Origin: Schlesneria paludicola DSM 18645
Lineage (GTDB): Bacteria; Planctomycetota; Planctomycetia; Planctomycetales; Planctomycetaceae
Direction of reading: 5' to 3'
Assembly (NCBI GenBank): GCA_945876035.1
Contig: CAMCMU010000006.1
Location: 79,437-143,436 of the forward strand
DNA length: 64,000 nucleotides
Shown here: piece by piece, positions 25,961 through 37,991 of the stretch
How positions within the stretch are numbered: the first letter of the stretch is position 1
Layout of the letters: every line of letters begins with the position of its first letter
The notes under the pieces: model-generated
Seen by the model: only the letters and a program-made list of their open reading frames with translations
What the model was told of the DNA's origin: nothing
Database searches by the model: none
Program-made: the position numbers and the translations under genes

Positions 25961-26881
25961 ATGCCAGCGTTCGATATTTCTCCTAAAAAAACGCGTGTCG
26001 GGTGGATCGGTACCGGTGTTATAGGTTCGAGTATGGTGGGCCATTTGATAACGGCCGGCTATTCCACGACGTTGTTTACGCGGTCCAAACATAAAGCCAG
26101 TGGACTGATTGACCGGGGTGCCAAGTGGGCTGAAACACCCAAACAGGTGGCCGAGCAGTCGGACGTTGTTTTTTCGATAGTTGGTTTTCCAAGCGATCTT
26201 CGAGAGGTGATTCTCGGTGCCAACGGTGCTCTTTTCGGCGCAACGCAGGGCTCGATTCTTGTGGATATGACTACCAGCGATCCGACATTGGCCGTTGAAA
26301 TACACTCCCTCGCAAAGCAGAGAGGTGTCTACAGCGTGGATGCGCCCGTTTCCGGAGGCGACATCGGTGCTAAAAATGCGACTCTGTCAATCATGATCGG
26401 TGGGGACAAGGATGTCGTCGATGCCTTGCTGCCCTTGTTTTCAGTCATCGGAAAAACAATAGTCCATCAAGGGGGACCTGGTGCCGGCCAGCATACCAAG
26501 ATGGCGAACCAAATTCTCGTCGCGACCAACATGGTCGGTGTCTGTGAGTCCCTCCTTTACGGTTACAAAGCAGGGCTCGACTTGCCAACAATGCTGAAGT
26601 CTGTCGGTCCAGGCGCTGCAGGAAGTTGGTCGCTCAATAATCTCGGACCACGCATCATTGAAAACAACTTTGATCCAGGCTTCTTTGTTGAACATTTCAT
26701 CAAGGATATGGGCCTTGCTCTGGCAGAAGCCCGGCGGATGGGCTTATGTCTTCCGGGTCTGTCTTTGAGTGAGCAGTTGTATCAATCGGTCAAGTCCAAG
26801 GGCTGGGGCCGGAACGGCACTCACGCATTGATGTTGGCGCTGGCCGAAATGGCAAATATCGATTGGCGAAATCGAGAGTGA
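25961..26881 (+). CDS. NAD(P)-dependent beta-hydroxyacid dehydrogenase (3-hydroxyisobutyrate dehydrogenase / tartronate semialdehyde reductase family)
   Basis: [31 protein letters not shown]...[22 protein letters not shown]...[20 protein letters not shown]. Confidence 0.92.
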
Positions 26882-27021
26882 AGGTGGCTTTCGGGGAGGC
26901 CTCCACGGAAGTGGATGAGTCTAGATTGTCCCCAAGAAAACCCGGCGTTCATTGGTTCATTGGGATGACTTGGAAACTCGCAACGTCAGGCACAGACTGT
27001 GCCAATTCAAGGCAGAAACTC

Positions 27022-27909
27022 ATGGCACGCAAGGGCGAGCAATTCGCAGGACTGACAGTGGCGATCGTCACACCATTCAAGGAAGGGCGTGTTGACGAGG
27101 CGGCACTCCGCAAGGCAGTGGATTGGCATGTCTCGCAGGGGACCAATGGACTTTGCCCCGTGGGGACGACGGGTGAATGCCCAACGTTGTCAACGGCTGA
27201 GCATGAGCAGGTCATCGCCGTCGTGTGTGAACAAGCGGCGGGACGGATCAAGGTCATGGCTGGCACCGGTTCCAACAGCACCTCTGAAGCAATTGAGTTA
27301 ACCCGCTTTGCGAAGTCCGCGGGCGCGGACGGGGCCATGATGGTCGCCCCCTATTACAACAAACCGACCGCGGAAGGCTTCTTTCAACACTACCGAGCGG
27401 TGGCTGAAGCCGTCGATATTCCGATTATTCTGTACAACATTCCGGGTCGTACAGCAAAGAACATGGAACCAGACGTCGTCGCACGCATCGCCGAAATTCC
27501 AAATATCGTCGCGATCAAGGAGGCCACAGGCTCCATGGATCAGGCATCCCACACCCTTTCTCTGACGAATCTGACGGTCTTGTCAGGTGATGACAGCCTG
27601 ACATTGCCTTTGCTGTCGATGGGTGGAAGTGGAATCGTGTCCGTCGTCGGCAACATTGTTCCCGGTGACATGCTGCAGATGCTCACCGCGTGGAACACGG
27701 GCAACATTTCTGAAGCACAGCGATGGCATTTCAAGCTGTTCGGCCTTTGCCGTGATATGCTCGGGATTGCCACAAATCCCATTCCCATTAAAGCCGCCAT
27801 GAAAATGCTAGGACGAGATACCGGTGAATTGAGACTGCCTCTCACCGCACTTTCAAAACTTGAGGAGTCGCGATTAAGGCAGACACTGAATCAGTATGGA
27901 CTCCTTTAA
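27022..27909 (+). CDS. dapA: 4-hydroxy-tetrahydrodipicolinate synthase
   Basis: [47 protein letters not shown]...[34 protein letters not shown]...[11 protein letters not shown] 27022 preferred over 26863. Confidence 0.95.
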
Positions 27910-28059: not shown

Positions 28060-29400
28060 ATGGTTTTCGGATTCGGCAAGAAGAAACCAACCGCGAAGCG
28101 GAACGATGAAGGAGACGAGTCCGATGACGATGATGGTGACGATGATGGTGATCTCGTCAACTTTCAGGGCGCAATGAATGGGAAATCCGTGGACTTGGTG
28201 GCCCAAGGAAAATTGGTTCAAGTGGCATTACTACCGGCTAAGCGGTGGATTAGCAGTGGGCTTGAGAGACGTGCCGAAATGATTCGTCTGGACGTCAAGG
28301 GTGAGAACGCTCACACCACGTTGTCCATTGATGGGATGCCTTACGGCGGCAGTCGAATGCCGAGACAACAGGCTTCGTACATCATCCAAATGATGAAATT
28401 TTTGGCGGGGCTCGATGCCAAAATCAAGGGTCGACATCAGGCAGGCGGGATCAAGTCGGAGTATCTTGGAGCGAAGTTCGAACTTTCGGTGGAGGTCATA
28501 CCACATGCGGAAGGAACGGAGCGACTGACAATTCGCGTGCGTAATTTAAAACAAAAGCTGGATACACCCGCCGAACTTGGATTTACCGAGTCCTTACGGC
28601 AGTCGATTCGAGATTTGACCGCACACAGACGCGGTCTGATTGTCGTCTGCGGGCCTCCGGGATCTGGAACGACAACGACCGTATACGGCCTGTTACGTGG
28701 AATTGACGTCTACCTTTATTCCATTTATTCCATTGTGAATACAGGGAGTCGAGAACTGCTCAACGTCAAAACCTTTGAAGCCAATGATGGTGACAATTAC
28801 GAGACGTCGTGCCTACGAATGATGCGTGAAGAAGCGGATGTGATCTTTGTCCCCCCTCTGAAAGATGCCGAGACGACCCAACAATTCATGAGTGTCGCCG
28901 ACCGGATATGCATTGTTTCCGAAATGACAGCGAAAGACTCAGCGCACGCCATCGCTCAACTGGTGGCATTGTCTGGCAACTCCAAGTTGGCGAGCGAGGT
29001 CATTGATGCGGTATTCAGCCAAAAACTAGTTCGTTTGCTTTGTCCAGAATGCCGCGAAGCCTTTCGGCCAAGCCCAAAGCTTCTGTCCAAGGTCGCTCTG
29101 CCTCCCGAGACAAAAGTGCTCTATCGAAAACCCGTGCCGGTGGTTGACGAAAAGACAGGCGAGGAAGAACCACCGTGCGAAAAATGTAGCGGCACCGGGT
29201 TCTTTGGGCGCGTGGCGATGCTGGAAGCGATTTTGGTATCCGATGCCATGCGAGTATTGATCGCCATGAATGCCACTGCCGCCCAAATTAAAGAGCTTTC
29301 CCGTTCCGAAGGCGGCCTGACCTTTCACAAAGACGGTTTAAGGCTTGTGGCCGAAGGAAAGACATCGCTCGAGGAATTGCAACGCGTGTTCCGAGTTTGA
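28060..29400 (+). CDS. GspE/PilB (T2SS/T4P) ATPase-family protein with degenerate nucleotide-binding motifs (probable pseudo-ATPase)
   Basis: VVCGPPGSGTTTTVYGLLRG (Walker A Lys replaced by Thr), MREEADVIFVPPLKDAETT (GEIRD replaced by PPLKD), C-terminal CPEC...CEKCSGTGFFGRVAMLEAI zinc/CM domain retained. Confidence 0.85.
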   Translation: MVFGFGKKKPTAKRNDEGDESDDDDGDDDGDLVNFQGAMNGKSVDLVAQGKLVQVALLPAKRWISSGLERRAEMIRLDVKGENAHTTLSIDGMPYGGSRMPRQQASYIIQMMKFLAGLDAKIKGRHQAGGIKSEYLGAKFELSVEVIPHAEGTERLTIRVRNLKQKLDTPAELGFTESLRQSIRDLTAHRRGLIVVCGPPGSGTTTTVYGLLRGIDVYLYSIYSIVNTGSRELLNVKTFEANDGDNYETSCLRMMREEADVIFVPPLKDAETTQQFMSVADRICIVSEMTAKDSAHAIAQLVALSGNSKLASEVIDAVFSQKLVRLLCPECREAFRPSPKLLSKVALPPETKVLYRKPVPVVDEKTGEEEPPCEKCSGTGFFGRVAMLEAILVSDAMRVLIAMNATAAQIKELSRSEGGLTFHKDGLRLVAEGKTSLEELQRVFRV

Positions 29401-29611: not shown

Positions 29612-30064
29612 GTGGGACGCACACAACGCGCACTGACGTCTTTGGTAGCCGCGATTCCTGCGGGCTACCTCAGTTATTTGTTGATCATGGCGTTTCTGAG
29701 TAAGGCGGACACACTTAAAACGTCGATGCAAGTCATCGCTGGAGTGACGCTGCTTGCTGCGATGTTTGTTGCTGCGATGCCGTTCATTCTGTTAGTACCC
29801 AGTCGAAAAAAGAACGTCCCGGCTTCAACAACGGCGGTCCCGAAGGATGATGTGGACGCTGAAGCAGACTCTGTCGGTGATGAAAGTCGTGAGGAACTGT
29901 CCGCAACTGACGATTTCGCTTTCGACGATTCAGGCTCAAGGATTTCCTCCGCGTCGGAAGAATTATTCACATCCGATCCGGAAATCTCGCTGGACGATCT
30001 GAACGCGTTCGCTCTTGACGAAGACGAGGACGAGGAACCCGCGCCAAAGACGCGAAGAAAGTAA
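29612..30064 (+). CDS. Small membrane protein, two TM helices and acidic C-terminal tail
   Basis: GTG start; LTSLVAAIPAGYLSYLLIMAFL, MQVIAGVTLLAAMFVAAMPFILLV, then Asp/Glu/Ser-rich tail ending DEDEDEEPAPKTRRK. Confidence 0.65.
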   Translation: MGRTQRALTSLVAAIPAGYLSYLLIMAFLSKADTLKTSMQVIAGVTLLAAMFVAAMPFILLVPSRKKNVPASTTAVPKDDVDAEADSVGDESREELSATDDFAFDDSGSRISSASEELFTSDPEISLDDLNAFALDEDEDEEPAPKTRRK

Positions 30065-35708: not shown

Positions 35709-36584
35709 GTGGGTGCAATCGCGGTTGATACAGACTACCTCCAACTTTCCCCAATCTTCGGAGCTAGACTTTTGACAAACAGTGAATCCCCGTACCAGTT
35801 TGAGCGGTTAGATAATTACACTTTGCTCACTTTACATCCGCTGATTAATGACGGTCAGTGGGGGAACGTCTCGCAAGTGGGTACTGAAATTCTCAATCGT
35901 CTTGAGGCGATGGAGAATCCTTCGTTGGTGGTGGATCTTTCCCCGCTCGACTATATGGGGAGTGCTCAAGTGGCACTTCTTGTTAGGATTTGGAAATCTC
36001 TTAAGACTTCCAAGGGATCGATGGCCGTACAGTGTCCCGGCGAAACAGCGAAGGCCGTCTTGGCGACGGCTGGTTTAAAGTCCGTTTGGAAAATTGTGGA
36101 TACCCGCGAGGAAGCATTGGCTGCCGTCGGTGTCAGAGACTCTTATTCGTCCAATGAATCTGCGCCCCGTGTGGGAAGTCCCGTCCTCGGAATAATTGCG
36201 GTGGCCATTGCTGTGGCGGCGATTTTCCTTTGTGTTTTTGGACAAAAATTTATACCTGCTCCCGCCAGCTTCGGAGTGGTCGTTGTTTTCGCGCTGGCTT
36301 CTCTTGCTGCTGGTGGAACGGCTGCAATTCTCGCGACAGGTTTTTCGAAATGGGTCGGAGCAACCGCTGCCGTTGTCAGTGTCGGAGTGTTCCTTTGGGC
36401 CGGCTACCAATTTGGCAAATTTCAGAAACCACCCGTTGCCCCGCATTCGACCCCTGAATCAGAAGTGCAGACGGATGGTTCCGAATCCAAATTACCACCG
36501 GCAGACAAAAATGATGGTGGTGAGATCTCCAATCAGAAAATTGAAGCTCCACCTTCTCACGCTCCCATAAAAAGACCTAAATAA
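35709..36584 (+). CDS. STAS-domain protein followed by TM helices and hydrophilic tail
   Basis: LVVDLSPLDYMGSAQVALLVRIWKSLKTSKGSMAVQCPGETAKAVLATAGL; then GIIAVAIAVAAIFLCVFG and two more hydrophobic stretches; GTG start. Confidence 0.75.
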   Translation: MGAIAVDTDYLQLSPIFGARLLTNSESPYQFERLDNYTLLTLHPLINDGQWGNVSQVGTEILNRLEAMENPSLVVDLSPLDYMGSAQVALLVRIWKSLKTSKGSMAVQCPGETAKAVLATAGLKSVWKIVDTREEALAAVGVRDSYSSNESAPRVGSPVLGIIAVAIAVAAIFLCVFGQKFIPAPASFGVVVVFALASLAAGGTAAILATGFSKWVGATAAVVSVGVFLWAGYQFGKFQKPPVAPHSTPESEVQTDGSESKLPPADKNDGGEISNQKIEAPPSHAPIKRPK

Positions 36585-36746
36585 CAATGAATTACCGAAG
36601 CAAAAGACGTGATTTTAAGATAAATAATTCCTGAGAAATTCCCCAATCTTCAATAATGATCAAACTCGCGCTTTATCGCATTGATAACACGGATTGCACG
36701 CGTCAAAAAAACGACCGAATCCCTTCACTTCAGTGATGAATACACC

Positions 36747-37991
36747 ATGAGTCAATCTGCACATAAAAGTGAAAACATCTCCAGTCAAACAGCTGTTCGC
36801 GAAGAACTGCGTGAGCTTCTGGGGGTCGTTGGACCGGTTCCTCTTGTTGATTTGTTGATCGAGCGGGCATTTCATTTAAATGCGACGGACATTCACTTCG
36901 ACCCCACGGGCGAGGGTTTGAGATGCAGAATTCGGGTCGATGGGCTTTTGCATGACATCTTAATGGTCCCTTTGGCAACAATGCCTCAAGTCATTTCTCG
37001 GCTCAAGCTACTGGCTGGAATGGACATCACCGAGCGGCGTCTTGCACAAGACGGCCATATGGCAAACACGTTAGGAGAGCGGAGTCGAGACATTCGTGTG
37101 GGGAGTGGACCAACGATTTATGGAGAACGCCTCGTACTCCGCCTGATGCCAGATGCTCAGTCGTTTGAACGATACGACGATCTGCACGAACTCGGGTTGG
37201 AACCGAACCAAGCGACTCAAATGGAGCGTTTTATTAGGGCGCCATACGGAATGGTCTTGAGCGTTGGTCCAGTAGGAAGTGGTAAGAGTACGACAATGTA
37301 TTCATGCCTTAAGCGACTCAACGATCCGGCCAAAAGCCTGATTACCATCGAAGATCCTGTCGAGCGGCGAATGCCGGGAGTCAACCAGATTCAGGTTGAT
37401 CCTAAAATCAACTTTTCCTTTGTCGAAGCTCTCCGAGGTGTGCTGCGACAAGATCCCAATGTGATGATGATCGGAGAAATTCGTGATTCGGAGACGGCAC
37501 GAATCGCCGTCCGTGCGGGCCTGACCGGAGTGATGGTTCTGAGTACACTTCACGCCAACGATACGGCATCAACAATCGATGTCTTCCGTGATTTTGGCAT
37601 TCCGCCGATGTTCATTGCAGATAGCCTGCAGGGGATCCTCTCGCAGCGACTAATGCGCAAGGCCTGTCTTCATTGCCGACAGGCATATCATCCGGATGAA
37701 GCCACCTGCGTCATCTTGGGAATTGATCCTGCAAATGCGGCAGCAACGTCGCTGTTTCGCGGTCAAGGGTGCGATTCGTGCTTTGGAACAGGGTACTCCG
37801 GTCGAACTGGAATTTACGAAGTTATGGGACTTGATGCGGAACTTCGCCATGAGATTATTAAAGGTGCCCCGCAAAATGAGTTGATGTCGATCGCCAAGTC
37901 CAAAGGAATGCGCACACTCGATATGGCCGCCATTCAAAAAGTAACGGACGGGATCACGACAATTGAAGAAATGCATCGCGTCTTAACGTAG
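36747..37991 (+). CDS. GspE/PilB family type II secretion/type IV pilus ATPase (canonical motifs)
   Basis: [72 protein letters not shown]...[19 protein letters not shown]. Confidence 0.93.

Follow-up and report, generated by a model that had tools for sequence, protein, structure and literature searches.

A PilB/GspE-type pseudo-ATPase predicted to be maintained throughout the Planctomycetaceae

PilT/VirB11-like ATPases are reported to show complete conservation of Walker A and B, the catalytic Glu, the ASP-box Glu, and two arginine fingers (PMC5424180). Whether such motor rings double as adaptors or sensors has so far been approached mainly through point mutants (i.e., PilT K136A and PilB Walker A mutants). 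In V. cholerae, PilT K136A still permits PilU retraction of pili, and in this best-studied pair each of the two proteins assembles into a homohexamer of its own (PMC6821130). Hetero-oligomers of PilB and TfpB have been proposed (PMC11656802). A Walker A mutant of M. xanthus PilB is the active signaling form for exopolysaccharide, and PilB can signal independently of piliation (PMC5544727). In Planctopirus limnophila, genes can be deleted with available tools, and pilQ deletions have been made (PMC11958385). A search of the open-access literature yielded no prior report of a natural PilB/GspE-family pseudo-ATPase, which is weak evidence of absence.

Here, we describe such a candidate from a 64,000-nucleotide stretch of DNA (the window; contig CAMCMU010000006.1 of Schlesneria paludicola DSM 18645). 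Its ORF is intact, and the Pfam T2SSE profile (PF00437) matches residues 61 to 442 of the product with 121.8 bits against a cutoff of 24.9. An earlier reading made from the letters alone (the sequence-only reading) had described a full-length, uninterrupted gene of 446 aa in which every core nucleotide motif is degenerate; the ORF and the motif letters were exactly as quoted, and alignment to PilB bore out their degeneracy. The features are as follows.

28060..29400, plus strand: PilB/GspE-like pseudo-ATPase coding sequence, stop codon included (ATG start, 446 aa; Pfam T2SSE; orthologues in 150/150 genomes)
28060..28158, plus strand: N-terminal hydrophobic-basic start (MVFGFGKKK) and acidic linker, residues 1 to 33 (mostly disordered in the model; character conserved in orthologues)
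28651..28680, plus strand: degenerate Walker A, residues 198 to 207, GPPGSGTTTT, with the Lys replaced by T204 (compared across 94 distinct orthologues)
28729..28755, plus strand: degenerate ASP box, residues 224 to 232, with the Mg-coordinating Glu (PilB E357) replaced by S230 (Glu in 4/94)
28831..28866, plus strand: degenerate Walker B/catalytic segment, residues 258 to 269, with the catalytic Glu (PilB E395) replaced by P266 (Glu in 2/94, Pro in 81/94)
28906..28941, plus strand: degenerate HIS box, residues 283 to 294, with both His gone (I283 and T290; His in 0/94) and a new invariant Glu, E288
29032..29034, plus strand: R325, equivalent of PilB R455 (neighboring-subunit contact; role from PMC5424180), retained in 94/94
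29041..29052, plus strand: zinc module, first CxxC (C328 and C331, each in 93/94)
29176..29187, plus strand: zinc module, second CxxC (C373 and C376, each in 93/94)
26863..27909, plus strand: dapA-like gene, conserved syntenic neighbor, directly upstream on the same strand in 40/72 loci (the conserved protein starts inside the ORF)

Residue equivalences follow the Geobacter PilB numbering (PMC5424180), with the register set through the neighboring canonical protein. K331, E357, E395, H413, H420, and R271 of Geobacter PilB correspond to T204, S230, P266, I283, T290, and S143, respectively; the arginine finger R286 is kept as R159, and the inter-chain R455 is kept as R325. Judged by this alignment, the protein has lost the residues that bind ATP, coordinate Mg2+, and carry out hydrolysis. 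The pore-loop acids (D269/E271) are retained, and the N2 domain, the RecA-like domain, and the tetracysteine zinc module are all present. Retention of the C-terminal zinc module had been noted from the letters and holds across the orthologues. The accompanying statement that the fold-defining N-terminal region remains was correct for N2, which alone makes up that region; a domain of the N1/MshEN type is absent. The acidic N terminus had been called unusual, and this did not stand: the same kind of start, M-[IVA]-F-G-x-x-[KR], followed by an acidic linker (of the 22 residues preceding F35, 10 on average are acidic), recurs through the orthologue family. We take this arrangement to resemble the membrane-targeting start of FtsY and treat the likeness as a lead.

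An orthologue was detected in each of the 150 sampled Planctomycetaceae genomes, a count in which a few fragmented assemblies give a partial or weak best match, as contig ends would. The family was taken to be the Planctomycetaceae from the named loci, which belong to Schlesneria, Gimesia, Thalassoglobus, Alienimonas, Fuerstiella, and Planctomicrobium. In a class-wide sample, scores were bimodal, with an orthologue in 56/56 Planctomycetaceae genomes and no match above 192 bits in the other families (143 genomes). The sequence-only reading had proposed searching planctomycetes for orthologues that share the K-to-T change. All 94 distinct orthologues lack the Walker A Lys (V in 67, T in 16, L in 9, I in 2, and K in 0), well outside what chance would give, and none has an intact GxxGSGKT. 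The P-loop keeps its first and last Gly and its T-T, and an acid is present in pore loop 1, at position 269 or 271, in 90/94 orthologues. The equivalent of arginine finger R271 is Arg in 24/94 (i.e., lost in 74%), and that of R286 is Arg in 55/94 and Lys in 25/94; the latter may keep a residual role at the nucleotide site of a neighboring subunit. Two positions are newly invariant in the family (E288, 94/94; R253, 93/94), which points to new constraint rather than drift. One divergent orthologue (L144, in genome G018) has lost the zinc Cys, with LRDDIKEAY replacing the first CxxC and the remaining protein kept.

Strong purifying selection was evident in close orthologue pairs, with dN/dS values (NG86) of 0.02 to 0.09 in most pairs and 0.25 in the highest pair. 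The ATPase core is under purifying selection too, and its constraint is little weaker than that on the zinc/C-terminal part. These values argue for a maintained pseudo-ATPase and against decay. The AF2 model of the protein had a mean pLDDT of 87.6, with residues 1 to 28 alone disordered (pLDDT of <50). Its best PDB matches were PilF, PilB, and GspE (Foldseek E value of 1.9e-32 to PilF), with TM-scores over the query of 0.50 to 0.67 among these matches; variable angles between the domains make a low RMSD unlikely. The suggestion of a pseudo-ATPase with a maintained non-catalytic role was supported by the family-wide absence of catalytic residues, the presence of the gene in every sampled family genome, the strength of selection, and a model that folds fully. 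From these comparisons, we conclude that 28060-29400 is a family-wide, selectively maintained PilB/GspE-type pseudo-ATPase and not a product of decay.

As a lineage, the protein carries the traits of the PilB/GspE clade, i.e., the tetracysteine zinc motif and the clade-specific inter-chain Arg. As an enzyme, it lacks the residues of the extension ATPases (Lys in 0/94, ASP-box Glu in 4/94, catalytic Glu in 2/94, and HIS-box His in 0/94). Scores against the NCBIfam equivalogs were below their cutoffs (TIGR02533, 148.7 versus 630.25; TIGR02538, 119.3 versus 675.65; NF053534, 143.2 versus 850). Identity as a PilT/PilU retraction ATPase was rejected, given a PilT-family score of 42.1 bits against a cutoff of 319.1 and the presence of the zinc motif.

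In the tree, the pseudo-ATPase was nested in a planctomycete clade of longer (about 570 to 680 aa) PilB-like proteins with an N-terminal signal/TM region, here termed membrane-anchored PilB-like proteins (a label coined in this study and not a published family). The enclosing branches had SH-aLRT values of 98 to 99, also after removal of the catalytic columns, and AU tests of the exact sister placement gave p values of 0.79 and 0.71. By phylogeny, the pseudo-ATPase descends from this clade of membrane-anchored ATPases, whose genes often adjoin a canonical pilT. The membrane-anchored protein is canonical in six families of the class (f1 to f4, f27, and f41) and degenerate in at least 12 others (f5, f7, and f9 to f18), with a consensus-like Walker A of xPxGGLTTL. 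The two degenerate groups differ in what they have lost: the degenerate membrane forms retain the first ASP-box Glu but not the first P-loop Gly, and the short form retains that Gly but not that Glu. This difference favors separate losses; AU tests were compatible with both a common and a separate origin. Catalysis was probably lost more than once across the membrane-anchored clade. The loci of the degenerate membrane-anchored paralogue (L133 to L137, L154, and L170 to L188) usually lie beside a canonical pilT. Two further families (f6 and f8) show partial loss in this paralogue and look like partial stages.

The usual gene context of the pseudo-ATPase consists of a 3-hydroxyisobutyrate-dehydrogenase-like gene, dapA, and the pseudo-ATPase gene, and in most genomes it does not lie among pilus genes. 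A scan bearing on a possible operon of dapA and the pseudo-ATPase gene yielded no promoter-like site, and terminator-like sites were near chance. Downstream, 29612-30064 encodes a small TM protein that has no Pfam match and whose C-terminal tail is strongly acidic; the same place in other genomes is often taken by a different small lipoprotein (e.g., L049, L065, and L144). Downstream of the pseudo-ATPase gene, members of the Thalassoglobus group encode a CNNM protein, three proteins of the T2SSF type (GspF/PilC-like), pilin-like proteins, and one DUF1559 pilin-like protein. The three-GspF cluster of most other genomes has its own canonical ATPase of roughly 405 aa and is sited far from the pseudo-ATPase gene. 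The cluster is absent from this genome, in which no F9 match and no close XA match were found. A general role as the ATPase of this cluster, to which the Thalassoglobus gene order had pointed, was rejected on the basis of that distance, the lack of F9 here, and the location of the canonical XA ATPase elsewhere in Thalassoglobus-group genomes. The cluster itself (L197, L198, L203 to L205, L207, and L095 11438-20818) is conserved in planctomycetes; besides its GspF/PilC-like genes, pilin-like genes, and a DUF1559 gene, it encodes a short canonical T2SSE ATPase and often an exported protein of ~650 aa, and it looks like an undescribed T2SS/T4P-like machine. This genome (G000; 4.7 Mb, 97% complete, versus 6.3 to 9.0 Mb in sampled congeners) has lost it and possibly represents a streamlined lineage.

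Two canonical ATPases were considered as obligate partners and rejected. One is encoded in the window at 36681-37991, a short PilB/GspE-like protein of patchy distribution, with a STAS/TM protein upstream (35709-36584) and no GspF nearby. The sequence-only reading had suggested a hetero-hexamer with this ATPase, a pairing that its distribution disfavors: 10 of 23 tested genomes (eight congeneric genomes plus G028 and G042), all with the pseudo-ATPase, have no orthologue at an E value of ≤1e-100, and where present in other genomes the orthologue is unlinked to the pseudo-ATPase. The other is the nearest canonical paralogue, the membrane-anchored PilB; 14 of 45 family genomes (five genera) lack it but do carry the pseudo-ATPase. 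This absence was confirmed with a profile of its N-terminal domain, which recovered the positive controls.

The best explanation for the locus, which we advance tentatively as falling just short of an even call, is a nucleotide-free, PilB-shaped adaptor or regulator at a T4P/T2SS-type platform. The protein would be locked in the nucleotide-free form and would self-assemble through the retained packing interface, i.e., R325 and the zinc module. Docking by way of its pore loop, either to a GspF/PilC-type platform protein or against a canonical motor ring, would make it an adaptor, a clutch, or a signal rather than a source of energy. By elimination, the likeliest host machine would be the core PilB-PilT-GspE-GspF type cluster (C17 in this genome), a guess made because canonical 560- to 600-aa PilB/GspE proteins were found in the family genomes examined for paralogues. 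In favor of an adaptor are the presence of the gene in 150/150 family genomes with bimodal scores, the alignment, in which structural and interface residues are invariant and catalytic residues lost in 94 orthologues, the low dN/dS values, the AF2 model with its PilF/PilB/GspE matches, the pore-loop acid in 90/94, the Thalassoglobus gene order, and the precedents of PilT K136A and the M. xanthus PilB mutant. Against it, the usual neighbors are dapA and the 3-hydroxyisobutyrate-dehydrogenase-like gene, the Thalassoglobus-type GspF cluster is absent here, and the mostly kept R286 equivalent may still act at a neighbor's nucleotide site.

Those metabolic neighbors also fit a re-use of the PilB fold outside the pilus world, in a regulatory or structural protein (e.g., in near-membrane signaling) without contact with a pilus machine. 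No single canonical ATPase or GspF cluster always co-occurs with the pseudo-ATPase, and the capacity of PilB to signal independently of piliation (PMC5544727) points the same way. We nevertheless consider this reading unlikely, though worth keeping in view, given that the pore-loop acids and zinc module are kept, that GspF-like and pilin-like genes adjoin the pseudo-ATPase in one lineage, and that dapA synteny may be mere chromosomal conservation. Distinctly less probable is a hetero-hexamer in which the pseudo-ATPase shares a ring with one specific canonical ATPase, either 36681-37991 or the membrane-anchored PilB, and governs how it steps or its symmetry. Full retention of the packing-interface R325, the mostly kept second arginine finger, and the proposed PilB-TfpB hetero-oligomers (PMC11656802) would fit such a ring. 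However, neither named partner is needed (absent from 10/23 and 14/45 genomes, respectively), PilT and PilU form separate homohexamers (PMC6821130), and, with the other arginine finger lost in 74% of orthologues and T411/H413/H420 gone, both shared interfaces would be dead.

An active NTPase with a non-standard site, using a relocated Lys or another cofactor, is very improbable. The conserved P-loop Gly residues and T-T indicate that the loop is not drifting freely, but the Lys, the Mg-coordinating Glu, the catalytic Glu, and both His are jointly lost, leaving no known chemistry, and the Lys position is hydrophobic or Thr in 94/94. A decaying gene or a sequencing or assembly artifact can be practically dismissed: beyond the draft, multi-contig state of this assembly, nothing was found in its support, and sequencing error, isolated mutation, and decay are ruled out by uninterrupted orthologues in 150/150 genomes, Lys loss in 94/94, the dN/dS values, and the many independent assemblies.

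As a family-wide exception under strong selection, the pseudo-ATPase suggests that the PilB ring fold can be useful without a need for ATP, and it departs from the complete conservation of catalytic residues reported for PilT/VirB11-like ATPases (PMC5424180). It would offer a ready-made, natural dead variant for the adaptor/sensor question, and a protein shaped like a motor appears to serve these bacteria in a non-motor role. More broadly, it is a realistic possibility, somewhat short of probable, that PilB-like motors of the Planctomycetia have repeatedly been turned into ATP-independent parts. Such dead rings, acting as adaptors or clutches in pilus/secretion machines, would be a previously undescribed class. 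This class might, with similar reserve, comprise two forms: a short soluble one in every sampled Planctomycetaceae genome and a membrane-anchored one beside canonical pilT in many other families.

Compared with the PilB/GspE extension ATPases of T4P/T2SS (PDB 5oiu PilF, 5tsh PilB, and 1p9r EpsE), the pseudo-ATPase has the same fold of N2, RecA-like, and tetracysteine zinc domains, and the inter-chain Arg and pore-loop acid are common to both. It differs in lacking the Walker A Lys, the ASP-box Glu, the catalytic Glu, and the HIS-box His and in having the hydrophobic-basic start and acidic linker in place of N1/MshEN. With the planctomycete membrane-anchored PilB-like ATPase (L128 8790-10703 and relatives), a sister lineage in the tree, it shares a homologous linker and N2 domain, whereas those proteins have an N-terminal signal/TM region where the pseudo-ATPase starts with MVFGFGKKK. 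The PilT-PilU (V. cholerae) and PilB-TfpB (A. baylyi) systems provide a precedent for a second ring that functions as a partner even with a dead Walker A (PMC6821130, PMC8213720); PilU and TfpB are described as active motors, in contrast to the loss of catalytic residues across this whole family. In M. xanthus, nucleotide-free PilB is the active signaling conformation (PMC5544727), but that case is a laboratory point mutant of a bifunctional motor, whereas the protein described here appears to be a dedicated, natural pseudo-ATPase.
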